Program-made: the position numbers and the translations under genes
In this document: positions 17,582 to 25,045 of the stretch, piece after piece
Layout of the letters: every line of letters starts with the position of its first letter
Position numbering within the stretch: the stretch's first letter is position 1
DNA from: an uncultured Alcanivoracaceae bacterium
GTDB lineage: Bacteria; Pseudomonadota; Gammaproteobacteria; Xanthomonadales; Marinicellaceae
NCBI GenBank assembly: GCA_913061105.1
Contig: CAJXVJ010000007.1
Coordinates: forward strand, 1 to 36,872
Direction of reading: 5' to 3'
DNA length: 36,872 nt
Notes under the pieces: model-generated
Told to the model about the DNA's origin: nothing
What the model saw: the letters and a program-made list of their open reading frames with translations, nothing else
The model's database searches: none

Positions 17582-18784
17582 TCACCCTCTTAATTCAGCA
17601 CTTTTTTGGTGGAATACCAAGCCTTCGGCTTCTGCCAAAATTGATGCAGTCTTTGCCAATTCAACTCTGCCATTGTCATTAATTTTTTGACTCGATAGGA
17701 CTTTCAAAAATTGATGAACACTCAGTCCACCGGAATATTTTCCAGCACCATTTGTCGGTAATGTGTGATTTGGTCCTGCGCAATAATCGCCAAATGCCAC
17801 AGCAGAGTTTTCACCTATAAATATTGAACCATAATTTTTAAACACAGAAGTATCACTATTTTTATCTGTGACAAGCAAATGCTCAGGTGCATAGTCATTG
17901 ATCAATTCAATTGCTTGGGCTTGATTGTCCGCAAGTACAAACTGAATCTGGTTGTTTTTGATTAATTCAACACCCGAATCATGTGCCTTTGTACAACTGT
18001 AAAGATTGTCTAACAGCTGTTGTGATGTGCTAACAATAATGCTAATGGCATTGGCATCATGCTCTGCTTGCGCCAGTGCATCATACATTATCCATTCTGA
18101 TTTGCTTAATTCATTGGCAAAAATCATCAATTCGCTTGGACCGGCCAAGGTGTCTATTTTTGTTCGGTCTTGAACTTGCGCTTTTGCTGAATTAACATAG
18201 GCATTGCCTGGGCCAACAATCATGTTTACAGGCTCAACATCGGCAAAACCATAGCTCAATGCACCAATGGCTTGCGCACCTCCAACATGAATAAACCTAG
18301 TCGCTCCTGCCAATGAAGCCGCTGCCAATAAAGCGGGGTGATTCGATGGCGAACAAGCCACCCGATTTGAACACCCTGCCACTTGTGCTGGAGTCAATGT
18401 CATTAATGCGCTAGATATCAATGGAAAATTCCCACCTGGAATATAGGCACCAATGTTTTCTATTGGTTGATACACATAACCAAATGTACCGAATTCATCT
18501 GAATAGGATTCATCACTTAAACCACGCATTTGAAATTCACAAAATGATTTGATGCGAGCATATGCCGTTAAAATGGCTTGTGATAGTTCTGGCTCAAGAC
18601 CATATTTTTCAAAAGGCAAGAGTTCTATAAATTTGGCAGGTTTACCATCTATCTTTTCATTCCATTGGTTTACCGCCTCATCGCCATTGTTGTCTATATC
18701 ATTGAGAATGGCTTTTACCTTCTCATCAATAGATTGCAAGTCATCAATGGCTGAACGTTTAAAGTCTATCGCATTAACGATCAT
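17582..18784 (-). CDS. hisD: Histidinol dehydrogenase
   Basis: AYIPGGNFPLISSALMTLTPAQVAGC, VGPGNAYVNSAKAQV, DTLAGPSELMIFA, DYCAGPNHTLPTNGAGKYSGGLSV. Confidence 0.97.
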   Translation of the reverse strand: MIVNAIDFKRSAIDDLQSIDEKVKAILNDIDNNGDEAVNQWNEKIDGKPAKFIELLPFEKYGLEPELSQAILTAYARIKSFCEFQMRGLSDESYSDEFGTFGYVYQPIENIGAYIPGGNFPLISSALMTLTPAQVAGCSNRVACSPSNHPALLAAASLAGATRFIHVGGAQAIGALSYGFADVEPVNMIVGPGNAYVNSAKAQVQDRTKIDTLAGPSELMIFANELSKSEWIMYDALAQAEHDANAISIIVSTSQQLLDNLYSCTKAHDSGVELIKNNQIQFVLADNQAQAIELINDYAPEHLLVTDKNSDTSVFKNYGSIFIGENSAVAFGDYCAGPNHTLPTNGAGKYSGGLSVHQFLKVLSSQKINDNGRVELAKTASILAEAEGLVFHQKSAELRG

Positions 18785-20018
18785 TGTTTCTACTCCTTAA
18801 ATCATTGACTATTTCAGATATGCCTACTCCTTTTGATTTGGCCATAACCATCGTAAAAAACAACAAATCTGCGGCTTCCCAGCGCACATGGTTATGGTCT
18901 TTTGCTTCGATGAGTTCTTCACATTCTTCTCTAAGTTTTTCAATTTGTAAGTTCTCATCACTGAATAGTGCCTGAGTAAATGATGGCTTTTTAGTGTCTT
19001 CTGCCAATCTTTTTTCAAATATTTCATCTAAATAACCTAATGAATAATTTTGATTTTGGGATGCAAAACAACTGTACCGATCAAAGTGGCAGGCATTGCC
19101 GCCTTGTTCAACCAAAAACAATAAGGTATCGCCGTCGCAATCCACGTCAACAGCAACCAATTTTTGCGTGTTGCCACTGGTCAAACCCTTGGTCCACATT
19201 TCGTTTCTTGAGCGCGAATAATATGCCCCTGTTCTTTGTGATAATGCCAATTGCAATGATTCTGGCGTACTATAGGCCATCATCAAAACCTTATTGGTTT
19301 TACAATCCTGAACAACCGTTGGAATCAATGGCAATTTATTGAAATCAACCAAAGACATAAAAGCTTTGTCTAAATCCATGCTGCCTGAATAAATCGCCAT
19401 GCCAATTTGTGAATTGGCGCCTAATTGGTTAATCCATTGCAAATCTTCATAACTGCTAATCCCACCAGCAACAGTCACTGGTATGTTTGAAGCTTTGATA
19501 ACTTCAGATATTCTGTCTTTATCAATGCCTCCCATCATGCCTTCTTTTTGCACTTGAGTATAAAGAAATTCACCACAATTTTTGGCCATTTCAGGAATAA
19601 TATCTATCACTTTTTGCTCCTGTGTTTTTTTCCAACCGTGTGTGGTTAAATAATCTCCTTTGGCATCTATGGCAAATACCAATGATTGTTTGGGTAGTTT
19701 TTTAACAAAATCAGCAGTGGCTGATGTGCCCAAAATGATTTTGCTAGCACCCGCTGCCAAGTAAGCTTTAGCCACATCTAAATCCCGAATTCCACCACCG
19801 ACTCTACACGGTGTTTTACGAAGCATTTTTTCGATCAGCACTTGGTTGTTTCCAGTTCCCATGGCAGCATTGAGATCTATGATAGCGACTTCGCCATACA
19901 TAGAAAATTCTTCTAACAATGCAAATACATCGTCTTTTTCTATTATCTTCTTTTCGGCTTGTCCTTGTTGTAATTGGACAGCCTTGCCATCCAGTAAATC
20001 TATTGAAGGTATTAACAT
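18774..20018 (-). CDS. hisA-hisIE: Trifunctional fusion HisA-HisI-HisE (ProFAR isomerase / PR-AMP cyclohydrolase / PR-ATP pyrophosphatase)
   Basis: One 414-aa ORF. HisA ~1-225 (IPSIDLLDGKAVQLQQG, RVGGGIRDLD, VFAIDAKG, YTQVQKEG, VAGGISSYEDL); HisI ~226-325 (VVQDCKTNKVLMMAYS, YYSRSRNEMWTKGLTSGNTQ, DVDCDGDTLLFLVEQGGNACH...SCF); HisE ~326-414 (REECEELIEAKDHNHVRWEAADLLFF). Confidence 0.94.
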   Translation of the reverse strand: MLIPSIDLLDGKAVQLQQGQAEKKIIEKDDVFALLEEFSMYGEVAIIDLNAAMGTGNNQVLIEKMLRKTPCRVGGGIRDLDVAKAYLAAGASKIILGTSATADFVKKLPKQSLVFAIDAKGDYLTTHGWKKTQEQKVIDIIPEMAKNCGEFLYTQVQKEGMMGGIDKDRISEVIKASNIPVTVAGGISSYEDLQWINQLGANSQIGMAIYSGSMDLDKAFMSLVDFNKLPLIPTVVQDCKTNKVLMMAYSTPESLQLALSQRTGAYYSRSRNEMWTKGLTSGNTQKLVAVDVDCDGDTLLFLVEQGGNACHFDRYSCFASQNQNYSLGYLDEIFEKRLAEDTKKPSFTQALFSDENLQIEKLREECEELIEAKDHNHVRWEAADLLFFTMVMAKSKGVGISEIVNDLRSRNNDR

Positions 20019-20794
20019 GATTGTGTTCTCATTTTGATTTTGTTTTTAATTAAATAGTCTTTGATTTGTTCCACAGTATATTCTTTTCTGTGAAAAATCC
20101 CGGCAGCCAAAACTGCATCGGCTCCTGCATTAATGGCGTCTAAAAAGTCTACTGGTTGATTGGCCCCGCCTGAAGCGATAATGGGAACAGAATAATCTTG
20201 ATTAGATAGTAAATCTAAATCAAACCCTGAACCGGTCCCATCTTTGTGCATGGCATTGATCATGATCTCTCCTGCGCCCCGTTGAATCACTTCATTCATC
20301 CATGAAGCATAGTTTTTCTCTACTCTTTTCGAACCACCATGTGTATATAAAACCAACTCACCACTTGCCTCTAAATTAACATCGACTGCAACGATGAGAC
20401 TTTGTGAGCCATATTTGTTGGCAATTTGATCAATTAGATTAGGATTCAAAACTGCCGCGGTATTCAAGGTGACTTTATCTGCACCTGCATTAAAGAACTT
20501 ATCAACATCCTCTAATATTTTTAAACCACCACCCACTGTAAAAGGTATTGAAAGTGTTTTTGCCACTTTATTGACCAATAACAAGGCGGAATCTTGCTTA
20601 TCAACACTGGCTTTAATGTCTAAGAAAACCAGTTCATCTGCGCCTTGGTGTTGGTATTGCAAACCCATTTCAATCGGATCACCCATGTCTTTTAATTGTT
20701 TGAAGTTTGTGCCTTTGACAACACGGCCATTTGCCACATCTAAACAGGCAATAATACGTGGAACCAAGGATGTTTTTTGAATTAATTTTGACAT
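20012..20794 (-). CDS. hisF: Imidazole glycerol phosphate synthase cyclase subunit
   Basis: RIIACLDVANGRVVKGTNF, TVGGGLKILEDV, DKVTLNTAAV, DGTGSGFDLDLL, IASGGANQPVDF. Confidence 0.97.
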   Translation of the reverse strand: MSKLIQKTSLVPRIIACLDVANGRVVKGTNFKQLKDMGDPIEMGLQYQHQGADELVFLDIKASVDKQDSALLLVNKVAKTLSIPFTVGGGLKILEDVDKFFNAGADKVTLNTAAVLNPNLIDQIANKYGSQSLIVAVDVNLEASGELVLYTHGGSKRVEKNYASWMNEVIQRGAGEIMINAMHKDGTGSGFDLDLLSNQDYSVPIIASGGANQPVDFLDAINAGADAVLAAGIFHRKEYTVEQIKDYLIKNKIKMRTQSC

Positions 20795-21369
20795 GCTGCT
20801 ACTCCTTGCAAAGTTTCATTTATCAGTTGCAAACCATAATCACCTGATTTTTCTGGGTGAAATTGAAATCCATAAACATTGTCTTTTTGAACTATCGCAC
20901 AAAAGTCATTACCGTAATTAACAGTCGCTTGACAAAATTCACTGTTACGAACTCCGAAAGAGTTGACAAAATAAACAAAATTTCCATTACTGTTTTCATC
21001 AACAGAATTCAATTGTGCCCAGCCAACCATTGGGGTTTTGGGGAAGTCTAATTTCTCAATTTCTCCTGTAAATATTGCCAAACCCTTGGCCCCAGTATCT
21101 TCTTGGCTTGATTCAAAGAGTAATTGCATGCCCACACAAATTCCGATAAACAGTTTGTCTTGTGCAATCCAATCTAAAATAAATTCCCGCCAATTGTTTT
21201 TGTTCAATTGGTCTGCTACAAAACCAAAACGGCCTTGCCCAGGCATCACCAAAACATCAAAATTTGAATCGGGTTTATCCAGAACAACCACTTCATTGCC
21301 AGTCTTAGAAAATGCTGAAACAATGCTCAGTAAATTTCCAGAATTTAAGTTAATAATCCCAATTCTCAT
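20782..21369 (-). CDS. hisH: Imidazole glycerol phosphate synthase glutamine amidotransferase subunit
   Basis: MPGQGRFGF, GICVGMQLLFESS catalytic Cys, FQFHPEKSG catalytic His/Glu. Confidence 0.97.
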   Translation of the reverse strand: MRIGIINLNSGNLLSIVSAFSKTGNEVVVLDKPDSNFDVLVMPGQGRFGFVADQLNKNNWREFILDWIAQDKLFIGICVGMQLLFESSQEDTGAKGLAIFTGEIEKLDFPKTPMVGWAQLNSVDENSNGNFVYFVNSFGVRNSEFCQATVNYGNDFCAIVQKDNVYGFQFHPEKSGDYGLQLINETLQGVAACQN

Positions 21370-21935
21370 AACATGCCCTTTGTGGTGGCAGAATAATCAG
21401 AAGGCTGTAAGGCTTCTTTAAAAGCATAAGCCATGGCTTTGAACGCACTTTCTATCAAGTGGTGGTTGTTTTTAAAGTATTGATTATTGATGTGTAAACA
21501 AATCTTGGCATTGATGGCAAATGTATAAAAAAAGTGCTCCCACATTTCGGTGTTAATGCCTCCTAATTGTGCTTGTGAAAAAGGCAAATTCGTCACACAA
21601 AAAGGACGACCACATAAATCAAGGGCACAGGTAGTCAAGGCTTCGTCCATTGGCAGTAATCTTTGTCCATATCTTTTGTTGTTTTGCGATTTCCAAGCAC
21701 TATACACCGCTTCTCCCAAACAAATGGCCACATCTTCAATGCCATGGTGGTCATCAACATGTAGATCGGCTTTGGCTTTTATGTCCAAACTCCAACAAGC
21801 GTGTGTTGCCAATTGATCCAACATGTGATCAAAAAAGGGCAAACCTGTATCAATATCGATTACTTTTGAATCTGGATTAATATCTAGCTTTAATGTGATG
21901 TCTGTTTCTTTGGTTTTTCTGTTAATTGTAATCAT
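21366..21935 (-). CDS. hisB: Imidazoleglycerol-phosphate dehydratase (monofunctional, no phosphatase domain)
   Basis: 189 aa; DTGLPFFDHMLDQLATHACW, DDHHGIEDVAICLGEA, HHLIESAFKAMAYAFKEAL; no N-terminal HAD domain. Confidence 0.97.
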   Translation of the reverse strand: MITINRKTKETDITLKLDINPDSKVIDIDTGLPFFDHMLDQLATHACWSLDIKAKADLHVDDHHGIEDVAICLGEAVYSAWKSQNNKRYGQRLLPMDEALTTCALDLCGRPFCVTNLPFSQAQLGGINTEMWEHFFYTFAINAKICLHINNQYFKNNHHLIESAFKAMAYAFKEALQPSDYSATTKGML

Positions 21936-23530
21936 AATAATTCTCTGACTTCATTGATGTTATTGAGCACAATGTCTGCACCTGCATTATAGAGGTTTGT
22001 AGCGTTTTCACCAATACCTATACATACACAGTTAGCTGCGGTTCCAGCTTGCATATCATCTACAGTGTCTCCACAAAACCACATGCGGTTTTTATTGGCC
22101 TTATCTTGAACCCAATTGATTCCTAACGGAGAAGGTTTTTGAGCGGACACATCGTCTGCTGAAACAATATAATCTGGTGAAATTTTTAATTGCTTAACAC
22201 CTGCCAATGCTTCAATTTTGGGACGACCTGTGATTATGGCTGTTGTATAATTTTTACTAAACAATTCTGGTGTAATTGAAGCTTCTAACAAATTGACTTC
22301 GTTACTCTTATACTTGTTGTAATACTCTTGAAATTTATTAACAACATTGGTTAACCAGACAGTGAAACCAGCAGACTCAATTAACCCTTTGGTCAAATCC
22401 CAATCATTATTAAACCCACCTTTTTCACGAAGTTCGGTGATTTTATCTACACTTACAGTGCTTTTTGTGAAGTATTCAACTGTTTTGACGATACTGACAT
22501 CATAAGATTGGCTGGTATCAATCAACACTCCATCCATGTCAAAACCCAATATTTCTGGTTGAAAGACTGTTTTTAATACACCCATCAATTGCTCAATGTT
22601 TTCAGGAATGGTGATGCGTACACAATTTGGCAAATCATTGACATGGGTTTTAATTTGTATGCCATTTTTTAATAGGAAGGACTTTAAAAGGGGTTTTATT
22701 TTTTTCTGAACCCTGAACAATAAAAAATTGCCTTTGCCATTATATACATCGACATCCATGGATTTTAAAAGGGCATAGATTTTATCTCTGTTATTGGCGA
22801 TTTTTTGACAATAAGCCTCCATTTCTTGTGAGTTTTGCAAGGCTTTTTTCGCCAGTTGAAGACTGACTTGATTGACATTAAACGGCATGGCAAGCTTCTT
22901 AAAATTTTTGATTAATTCCGCATTTCCGATTAAATAACCAATTCTGGCACCCGCTAAACCATAAGCTTTTGAAAAAGTGCGCAACGAAATTACATTGTCA
23001 TATTCTAGGGCATAATTTATCTCGCTGTTCTCAAGATAAAATTCAACATAGGCTTCATCCAAAAATACATTAGCGCCCTTTTTCTTAGCAGACTCAATTA
23101 AATCTATAAGGGTTGCTTCGGCCAAACATTCCCCAGTGGGATTATTGGGCCGTGTAATAATCAGCCATTGATTGGCTTTTAGTTTCTGCTTTATTTCTTT
23201 GGCATTGATATCAAGATTTTCCAATCCATTAACTTTAATATAATCTATGCCCCAAATACCCAATTGGTGTGTGTATTGGCTAAATGCTGGTGTGGGCAAA
23301 AGAATGGATTGTTCCTTTAATTTACACAATTTAAAAAGCAATTCAATCGATTCATCGCCACCATTGCTTAAAAACACATTTTCAGTTTTAGTCAGATACT
23401 TGTCGGCAATCAGCGCCTCTATTTTTTTTCTGTCTGGGTATTGCCACAAACATTGACTATCGATGTTAAACCCATCTAGCCATTTTGGGACAGAATCCGC
23501 CCTTTCATTGAAATCTAATTTTAAAGTCAT
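21932..23530 (-). CDS. hisC: Fusion of histidinol-phosphate aminotransferase (HisC) with a C-terminal HAD-superfamily phosphatase; putative bifunctional HisC/histidinol-phosphatase
   Basis: HisC ~1-325 (TRPNNPTGECL, VFLDEAY, RTFSKAYGLAGARIGY with PLP Lys, LPNCVRITI). HAD ~326-532 with complete motifs FDMDGVLIDT, IITGRP, QKPSP, CGDTVDDMQAG. Confidence 0.92.
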   Translation of the reverse strand: MTLKLDFNERADSVPKWLDGFNIDSQCLWQYPDRKKIEALIADKYLTKTENVFLSNGGDESIELLFKLCKLKEQSILLPTPAFSQYTHQLGIWGIDYIKVNGLENLDINAKEIKQKLKANQWLIITRPNNPTGECLAEATLIDLIESAKKKGANVFLDEAYVEFYLENSEINYALEYDNVISLRTFSKAYGLAGARIGYLIGNAELIKNFKKLAMPFNVNQVSLQLAKKALQNSQEMEAYCQKIANNRDKIYALLKSMDVDVYNGKGNFLLFRVQKKIKPLLKSFLLKNGIQIKTHVNDLPNCVRITIPENIEQLMGVLKTVFQPEILGFDMDGVLIDTSQSYDVSIVKTVEYFTKSTVSVDKITELREKGGFNNDWDLTKGLIESAGFTVWLTNVVNKFQEYYNKYKSNEVNLLEASITPELFSKNYTTAIITGRPKIEALAGVKQLKISPDYIVSADDVSAQKPSPLGINWVQDKANKNRMWFCGDTVDDMQAGTAANCVCIGIGENATNLYNAGADIVLNNINEVRELL

Positions 23531-24375
23531 ATGGCTTTCCTAATGGGTATTTCTAAGATGTCAGTCGCACCAGCTTTTATCAATTGTGGAATTAACGCCT
23601 TGACTTGATTACGTTTGACAGCAGCCCTAACTGCGAAATCATTGCTTTGGTACAATTGTGAAACAGTTGGCGCTCGCATAGCAGGCAATAATTCAACAAT
23701 TTTTTCCATGGCATTCTGTTTGCAGTTCATTTCCAATAACACCCGCTTTCTGCCGTTTAAAACCCCATTCATTAGGAGCAACATGTCATCAATAATGGCT
23801 TTTTTATCGGGATCATCTAGACACGATTGATTGGCAAAAAATTGGGTATTGCTGGTATAAACTGTATCGACAATTTTCAAGTGATTGGCTAAAATTGTGG
23901 TGCCTGTACTGGTGTTGTCTATAATCATATCGGCATCTTCGGGTGGAAAAACTTCTGTCGCACCGTACGAACGAATCAATTTATAATCAAAGCCTTGCTC
24001 ATCTAAAAACTTTTTACTCAGTGTTTTGTATTCTGTTGCCACAATAATTTTACGTTTCTTTAAGTCTGCATAATCCCATTCATCTGGAATACAAGCCACA
24101 ATCTCAACAGGATTAAAACCCAATGATTTTAGAATTTTCACATCGGCCTTTTGCTCTGCTATCCAATCCAACCCTGCAAACCCTATGTCATGTTGTTCTA
24201 ACTCAACCAGTTTTGGAATGTTTTGCGACTTTAACAATTTTATTTCAAAAGTTGAATCCGAGCACAAAGGCCTATAATTGCGGTCATTACTCTGTAACGT
24301 CAACCCTATTTCTTCTAGTAAATTAACTATTTCTACTTGCAGTTTGCCTTTTGGAATGGCCATTTTGATTTTCAT
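23527..24375 (-). CDS. hisG: ATP phosphoribosyltransferase (long form)
   Basis: 282 aa; IPKGKL, DIGFAGLDWI, IVATEYKTLSKKF, ADMIIDNTSTGTTI; C-terminal regulatory-type region ending KAGATDILEIPIRK. Confidence 0.95.
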   Translation of the reverse strand: MKIKMAIPKGKLQVEIVNLLEEIGLTLQSNDRNYRPLCSDSTFEIKLLKSQNIPKLVELEQHDIGFAGLDWIAEQKADVKILKSLGFNPVEIVACIPDEWDYADLKKRKIIVATEYKTLSKKFLDEQGFDYKLIRSYGATEVFPPEDADMIIDNTSTGTTILANHLKIVDTVYTSNTQFFANQSCLDDPDKKAIIDDMLLLMNGVLNGRKRVLLEMNCKQNAMEKIVELLPAMRAPTVSQLYQSNDFAVRAAVKRNQVKALIPQLIKAGATDILEIPIRKAI

Positions 24376-24402: not shown

Positions 24403-24443
24403 AAAAAAAAGCCCCGTAAATGTATTTAATTTAACGGGGCTTT
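24403..24443 (-). terminator. his attenuator 2: rho-independent terminator immediately upstream of hisG
   Basis: Minus strand: AAAGCCCCGT(24443-24434)-16 nt loop-ACGGGGCTTT(24417-24408) then T-run to 24403. 10-bp GC-rich stem, ending 27 nt before the hisG ATG. Confidence 0.92.
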
Positions 24444-24479
24444 GATATTTGTTTTTTTCTTTCAGGTACTATTCAAACA

Positions 24480-24536
24480 TCACCGCCGTTTGTGATGATG
24501 TGAATGATGTCGAATTTGTTTGTTTGTATTATTCAT
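24480..24536 (-). CDS. his leader peptide 2: MNNTNKQIRHHSHHHKRR* (18 aa)
   Basis: ATG AAT AAT ACA AAC AAA CAA ATT CGA CAT CAT TCA CAT CAT CAC AAA CGG CGG TGA: five His codons in a six-codon window, 36 nt upstream of terminator 2. Confidence 0.88.
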   Translation of the reverse strand: MNNTNKQIRHHSHHHKRR

Positions 24537-24557
24537 AATTATTGTGAATTTAAAGTG

Positions 24558-24594
24558 AAAAAAAAGCCCCGTAGAGTTCAATCTGACGGGGCTT
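24558..24594 (-). terminator. his attenuator 1: rho-independent terminator
   Basis: Minus strand: AAGCCCCGT(24594-24586)-13 nt loop-ACGGGGCTT(24572-24564)+TTTTTT. Same stem sequence as attenuator 2. Confidence 0.92.
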
Positions 24595-24635
24595 GTATTG
24601 TTTGTTTGTGTTTTTTAAATTTTTTCAATCACGCA

Positions 24636-24698
24636 TTAAACAGCACCGTCCGATTTCGAATGGTGATGATGGTGCAAGTTGTTTAAAAAATTATTCAT
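24636..24698 (-). CDS. his leader peptide 1: MNNFLNNLHHHHHSKSDGAV* (20 aa)
   Basis: ATG AAT AAT TTT TTA AAC AAC TTG CAC CAT CAT CAC CAT TCG AAA TCG GAC GGT GCT GTT TAA: five consecutive His codons, 41 nt upstream of terminator 1. Confidence 0.92.
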   Translation of the reverse strand: MNNFLNNLHHHHHSKSDGAV

Positions 24699-24732: not shown

Positions 24733-24913
24733 TTATTTTTTTAATTTATCTAATAATTTAATTTATGCAGAAAGCACAATAAAGACCAAGGTCTTAAACA
24801 ATACTCCCACAGCGACACAAAGACACGGCGAATAAAAACGTACTTATAAAAAGCTATAAGGTGAGTTTGCACTTCTAAATGTCAGGACCTAAATGAAATT
24901 ACGGCTACATCTT

Positions 24914-24947
24914 GAGATTGCCGCGTCGCGTTGCTCCTCGCAATGAC
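24914..24947. repeat. Intergenic palindromic repeat-like sequence GAGATTGCCGCGTCGCGTTGCTCCTCGCAATGAC
   Basis: ATTGC...GCAAT dyad with GC-rich core. Resembles dispersed intergenic repeats seen in many bacterial genomes (recalled, not searched). Confidence 0.45.
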
Positions 24948-25045
24948 TAAATATTCAATTAAAAACCTTTGCGAATTTTGCGTCTTCTTTGCGTTACGGT
25001 TTTGATTTTTTTCTTGATCTTAATTACACATTGTAAATTGCAAAT

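Follow-up and report, generated by a model that had tools for sequence, protein, structure and literature searches.

The his operon of an uncultured Alcanivoracaceae bacterium lies on the minus strand of the window (the whole stretch of 36,872 nts that was analysed) and its seven genes, of which hisG is the first, are preceded by a double leader. The order on that strand is a single promoter, leader 1, terminator T1, leader 2, terminator T2 and then hisG. Within each unit the His codons are here termed arm 1; arm 2 is just 3′ of them, and arms 3 and 4 are the 5′ and 3′ sides of the terminator, respectively.

24732-24705, minus strand: promoter, with −35 TTGACA (24732-24727), a 16-bp spacer and −10 TAATAT (24710-24705)
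24636..24698, minus strand: leader 1, MNNFLNNLHHHHHSKSDGAV, with its ATG at 24698, 6 nts (AAACCC) past the −10 box
24660..24674, minus strand: arm 1 of unit 1, five His codons in series
24641..24651, minus strand: arm 2 of unit 1, GGACGGTGCTG, predicted to form the antiterminator by pairing with the 5′ arm of T1
24558..24594, minus strand: terminator T1, stem AAGCCCCGT (24594-24586) / ACGGGGCTT (24572-24564), with an 8-T run ending at 24558
24480..24536, minus strand: leader 2, MNNTNKQIRHHSHHHKRR, with its ATG at 24536
24492..24509, minus strand: arm 1 of unit 2, the HHSHHH codons
24481..24491, minus strand: arm 2 of unit 2, AAACGGCGGTG, predicted to pair with the 5′ arm of T2
24403..24443, minus strand: terminator T2, stem AAGCCCCGT (24442-24434) / ACGGGGCTT (24417-24409), with an 8-T run ending at 24403
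23527..24375, minus strand: hisG, the first controlled gene (282 aa), with its ATG at 24375; matches PF01634 (1e-35) and PF08029 (4e-23)
17582..23530, minus strand: the other operon genes, a hisC/HAD fusion, hisB (IGPD), hisH, hisA, a hisF/hisIE fusion and hisD

Two leaders with runs of His codons (HHHHH and HHSHHH) upstream of histidine biosynthesis genes are what a peptide-type attenuator calls for, and an intrinsic terminator, with a G+C-rich stem and 8 Ts, separates each leader ORF from what follows it. The positions and sequences given in an earlier note for both leaders and both terminators are all correct on the minus strand, and its putative promoter is the minus-strand promoter-like site before leader 1. 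That this arrangement amounts functionally to two peptide-type his attenuators is, as judged from the sequence, well supported.

Two of the his genes in the window are fused, one fusion joining a HisC aminotransferase and a HAD-type phosphatase (21932-23530) and the other HisF and HisI/HisE (18774-20018). The hisG-hisC/HAD arrangement is common to the relatives checked, and a hisC/HAD match right after hisG is present in the Kangiellaceae loci checked and also in the Halobacteroidaceae locus L042. Between a GST-like gene and the his promoter, at ~24900-24960 on the minus strand, there is a sequence, ATTGCGAGGAGCAACGCGACGCGGCAATCTC, that resembles a dispersed intergenic repeat.

A scan of the window for short, His-rich ORFs with an intrinsic terminator after them yields exactly two matches, both of them these units, and the same scan of 30 dinucleotide-shuffled windows yields none. 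The stem word AAGCCCCGT occurs four times in the window, against 0.11 expected. In the 3.6-Mb genome the hairpin AAGCCCCG-N3..25-CGGGGCTTTTT occurs three times, two of these being at the his leader; the third copy of the stem (L240) was considered as a His unit and rejected, as it is an ordinary terminator between unrelated genes, and so the stem marks neither a genome-wide element nor a third His unit. A second genome match of the leader, L002, was rejected as chance AT-rich similarity. (At about positions 20-50 of the contig end at L240, G000:C129, there is an apparent Nextera transposon adapter, CTGTCTCTTATACACATCT, so the draft genome holds untrimmed adapter sequence.) A strict terminator scan permits a loop of at most 8, and T1 and T2 are absent from its listing because their loops are longer. 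No Rfam family, the His_leader model RF00514 and the T-box models included, matches the window at gathering score; across the class RF00514, which is insensitive outside enterics, leaves the source genome (G000) unmatched. Double units comparable to that of the window are present in cultured strains, for instance Marinicella litoralis KMM 3900 and Kangiella spongicola, and the double unit is therefore not a quirk of one MAG assembly.

Pairing of arm 2 with arm 3 is predicted at −13.4 kcal/mol in unit 1 and −10.5 kcal/mol in unit 2, in each case better than shuffled sequence (p 0.013 and p 0.030, respectively), and the same complementarity is above shuffles in most other units tested, of both unit types and in both families, the per-unit p values being non-independent since the species compared share ancestry. 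In unit 2 of L084, where the stem has diverged, the arms co-vary (arm 2 CAACAG, arm 3 CTGTTG, arm 4 CAACAG), and in L085, with CAACGAGG as arm 2 and CCTCGTT as arm 3, an A of arm 2 is matched by a T of arm 3. Folding was also carried out for the RNA that follows a ribosome stationed at each His codon in turn, with arm 4 still unmade. In unit 1 all five His stalls lead to the antiterminator; in unit 2 the two early ones do so, two later ones do so partly and the last one does not. With the ribosome on the stop codon no antiterminator forms and arm 3 is left available to the terminator. An antiterminator that excludes the terminator when a ribosome stalls at His codons is, on this modelling, predicted for both units. 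A protector hairpin between arms 1 and 2 is also predicted, but in the window its pairing is no better than that of leader shuffles (p 0.26 and 0.32). What counts against the reading is that in unit 2, with no ribosome and before arm 4 is made, the antiterminator is predicted to be favoured, which leaves the default state ambiguous. Minimum-energy folds of the full-length sequence always favour the terminators, and so the switch must be kinetic, decided during transcription; known attenuators likewise decide then.

The promoter, the ORFs, the terminators, their complementarity and their conservation together make it likely that this one his operon is controlled by two ribosome-mediated histidine attenuators of the peptide type acting in series. 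The core of the earlier note, that two His-codon attenuators stand in series before hisG, is borne out by the anatomy, by antiterminator complementarity in both units and by conservation in two families.

A search of 33 Marinicellaceae genomes gave 26 in which this HisG is present and its upstream DNA can be read. Fifteen of the 26 are tandem (a count to be read with the caveats that the L005 contig starts inside T1 and that T2 of L098 was missed by the scan and is visible in the sequence) and 11 are single, every single retaining the promoter-proximal unit 1. Alignment of relatives had been proposed to see whether both units are conserved, and random sequence in place of one leader had been set beforehand as refutation: most species do not show such replacement, but the wholesale absence of unit 2 from 11 of the 26 means that it is dispensable in some lineages. 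In Kangiellaceae the gene is present in 36 of 40 genomes, and by a strict scan 19 of the 36 are tandem, 15 are single and two lack a detectable leader; the core Kangiella clade, with 18 loci, is tandem throughout. The tandem arrangement thus extends to 34 species in two families, and its presence in more than 30 related species suggests that it is probably a working device and not an accident. Among 66 other loci of the class, a small sample, a classical His leader with terminator was found in four genomes, all of them single. A class-wide search with a degenerate DNA pattern of tandem His runs was discarded as too narrow, its negative result being uninformative because it misses the window itself.

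There are two side observations from these comparisons. In L003, a single-unit relative, a palindromic element, GATTCCTGCCTTCGCAGGAATGACGG, is located between T1 and hisG at the place of unit 2. Upstream of hisG in L059, L060 and L063 (Melainabacteria/Obscuribacterales) and in L064 (Vampirovibrionales) there is a single leader ORF with a His run (e.g. MPLNTRVIVETAARNHGHHHHHHS) and a terminator-like hairpin; these are candidate his attenuators in non-photosynthetic relatives of Cyanobacteria.

The loss of unit 2 from the 11 Marinicellaceae, unit 1 being kept in all of them, is what might be expected if a single unit regulates while its partner, unit 2 being the likeliest, is a duplicate in decay that has kept the look of an attenuator. 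The interrupted His run of unit 2 in the window, its lack of a Shine Dalgarno sequence and its weaker 2:3 helix would also fit. Yet in 34 species, drawn from two families and with widely differing HisG, unit 2 retains its His codons, its terminator and the 2:3 complementarity, and three mutually complementary arms are unexpected in a neutral remnant, so that decay of one unit is an unlikely account of the locus.

The common MNN start of the leaders and the common stem of the terminators had been taken to suggest duplication of one attenuator. This argument is weak, as ATGAA starts most leaders in both families and a CCCCG-type stem is found in nearly every unit, those of single-attenuator relatives included. 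The two leaders of the window align above shuffled sequence, as do leaders from different species. Units 1 and 2 of the same genome are no more alike than those of different genomes (permutation p 0.11), so any duplication would be old; recent duplication or gene conversion was rejected on this result, the two units of the window matching their counterparts elsewhere better than each other. Unit 1 of the window resembles unit 1 of its genus and unit 2 resembles unit 2 of L005, from which it follows that the units have long been separate. HMMs of units 1 and 2 trained on one Marinicella group could not tell the two apart in the other group, and both models gave Kangiella units similar scores; as the models did not discriminate the units, unit-by-unit orthology between the families is unproven. 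A conserved difference between the units in the distance from the His codons to arm 2 was rejected, being inconsistent across species.

In a HisG tree with distant relatives as root, Kangiella and Marinicellaceae form one clade (support 99/99), which is nested among single-unit Pleionea and Aliikangiella relatives. This tree calls for at least six state changes, which fit a single gain and some five losses, unit 2 being the one lost each time; the count is made soft by long outgroup branches and several unresolved forks. Recombination between T1 and T2 would remove exactly leader 2, and this may explain why it is unit 2 that gets lost. Marinicellaceae and Kangiellaceae are placed in different orders, which makes transfer of the whole operon likely, and the grouping of the Marinicellaceae his operon inside Kangiellaceae (99/99) suggests that it was transferred horizontally together with its double leader.

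Transcription normally starts 6–7 nts past the −10 box. At every Marinicellaceae locus with visible upstream sequence, 6–7 nts separate the −10 box from the ATG of leader 1, with a pyrimidine at −1, and the A of that ATG would therefore be at approximately +1. In tandem Kangiellaceae the gap is 6–8 nts at 17 of the 19 loci scanned and in single-unit Kangiellaceae it is 7 nts at 10 of 17. Judged from this spacing, leader 1 is probably leaderless in the window, and a leaderless start of leader 1 probably extends over the two families. Leader 2 lacks a Shine Dalgarno sequence in 13 of 13 Marinicellaceae (anti-Shine Dalgarno energy −0.5 or weaker) and, in a scan of the window, a promoter of its own. 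A second ribosome must accordingly initiate internally on an A/U-rich stretch, and the rate of leader 2 translation is uncertain for want of a Shine Dalgarno sequence.

The same scan bears on whether the units are strictly serial, as they would not be if two alternative promoters each served one attenuator and put the units on different transcripts. A promoter within unit 1 is conceivable, and in L014 the sequence ahead of leader 2 weakly resembles a promoter; against this, the one promoter-like site on the minus strand of the window that adjoins a leader precedes leader 1, no promoter scoring at least 8 is found before leader 2 in the other Marinicellaceae scanned, and any transcript from the first promoter traverses both units regardless. 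Separate transcripts are very improbable.

Peptide attenuators are usually pictured as having one leader and one terminator per operon, and the 2004 work of Vitreschak and colleagues is reportedly the main comparative survey of those of proteobacteria. The earlier note was not aware of a tandem peptide-type his attenuator, and none is described in the open-access literature searched, nor is a tandem peptide-type attenuator for any one amino acid (subscription papers were outside its scope, and a claim of priority is limited accordingly). The same literature contains no paper that links Marinicella to attenuators or Kangiella to leader peptides. The enterobacterial his attenuator (hisL; Rfam RF00514) also has a leader peptide with His codons, an intrinsic terminator and an antiterminator before hisG; it has one unit, whereas the window has two of a three-arm design with no Rfam match. 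The nearest match is Salmonella mgtCBR (mgtM/mgtP), whose single leader combines two attenuators with two short ORFs, called a ‘singular example’ by its authors (PMC3641672). There two signals, ATP and proline, are sensed, the stem-loops are unlike intrinsic terminators and the effects are additive (PMC3641672); in contrast, both units of the window appear to read His codons and both have intrinsic terminators. Tandem T-boxes are likewise serial, with one operon preceded by two sensors for the same tRNA, and tandem His T-boxes precede histidine transporter operons in five Enterococcus species (PMC9413887). T-boxes, however, bind tRNA directly without leader peptide or ribosome (PMC9413887), and the window has no T-box match. 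In ermB two leader ORFs (ermBL/ermBL2) control one gene, but by erythromycin-induced translational attenuation and without serial amino-acid terminators (PMC8274638). Some rimP leaders carry tandem terminators (PMC2965389). The transcript of Sinorhizobium meliloti trpL begins at the leader-peptide ATG, as is predicted for the window, though it concerns Trp and a single attenuator in an alphaproteobacterium (PMC7298713). Its leaderless attenuator RNA and peptide are described as acting in trans (PMC7298713), and it is just conceivable that the leaders here chiefly feed terminated small RNAs or peptides that act likewise, attenuation being secondary, but apart from the His run and the arm 2 region the leader peptides differ freely from species to species, which makes a conserved trans function of the peptide unlikely, and the idea has next to no probability.

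If the two units do act as serial attenuators, the transcription start, translation, stalling and termination would be as follows. RNA polymerase would start at, or approximately 1 nt from, the ATG of leader 1, and a 70S ribosome would load on the leaderless 5′ end and trail it. With ample His-tRNA this ribosome would reach the stop codon of leader 1 and mask arm 2, arms 3 and 4 would pair to form T1 and transcription would end near 24558. When His-tRNA is short, it would stall on HHHHH, arm 2 would pair with arm 3, T1 would not form and the polymerase would continue. At the second gate another ribosome would have to initiate at leader 2, in its A/U-rich surroundings, and stall within HHSHHH; failing such a stall, T2 would halt transcription near 24403, so that only polymerases past both gates would reach hisG.

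A steeper and less leaky response would be expected of such a series. In a toy Monte Carlo kinetic model with assumed textbook rates, read-through is the product of the two gates, the log gain is approximately twice that of one gate at moderate starvation, and slow initiation on leader 2 caps expression and raises leak. The multiplicative read-through that the earlier note had envisaged holds in this model alone and, as the product form is built into it, the model speaks to plausibility only. An analysis of the sensitivity of attenuation exists for single leaders (PMC1183508). The gates may, tentatively, be non-equivalent. The first would be entered by a 70S ribosome on a leaderless end, while the second would require internal initiation without a Shine Dalgarno sequence and, in the window, a stall on the earliest His codons, so that initiation capacity and deeper starvation would be tested as well; the pair would then be an AND gate for ‘His-tRNA short AND translation initiation working’, a possibility to which we give rather less than even weight.

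If leader 1 is leaderless across the two families, as is probable, one may ask how ribosomes are loaded in time with RNA polymerase where there is no Shine Dalgarno sequence. A conserved series of attenuators for the same amino acid would let one examine in nature whether two gates in series give a sharper response and less leak, for which the natural relatives that have lost only unit 2 would be matched controls.
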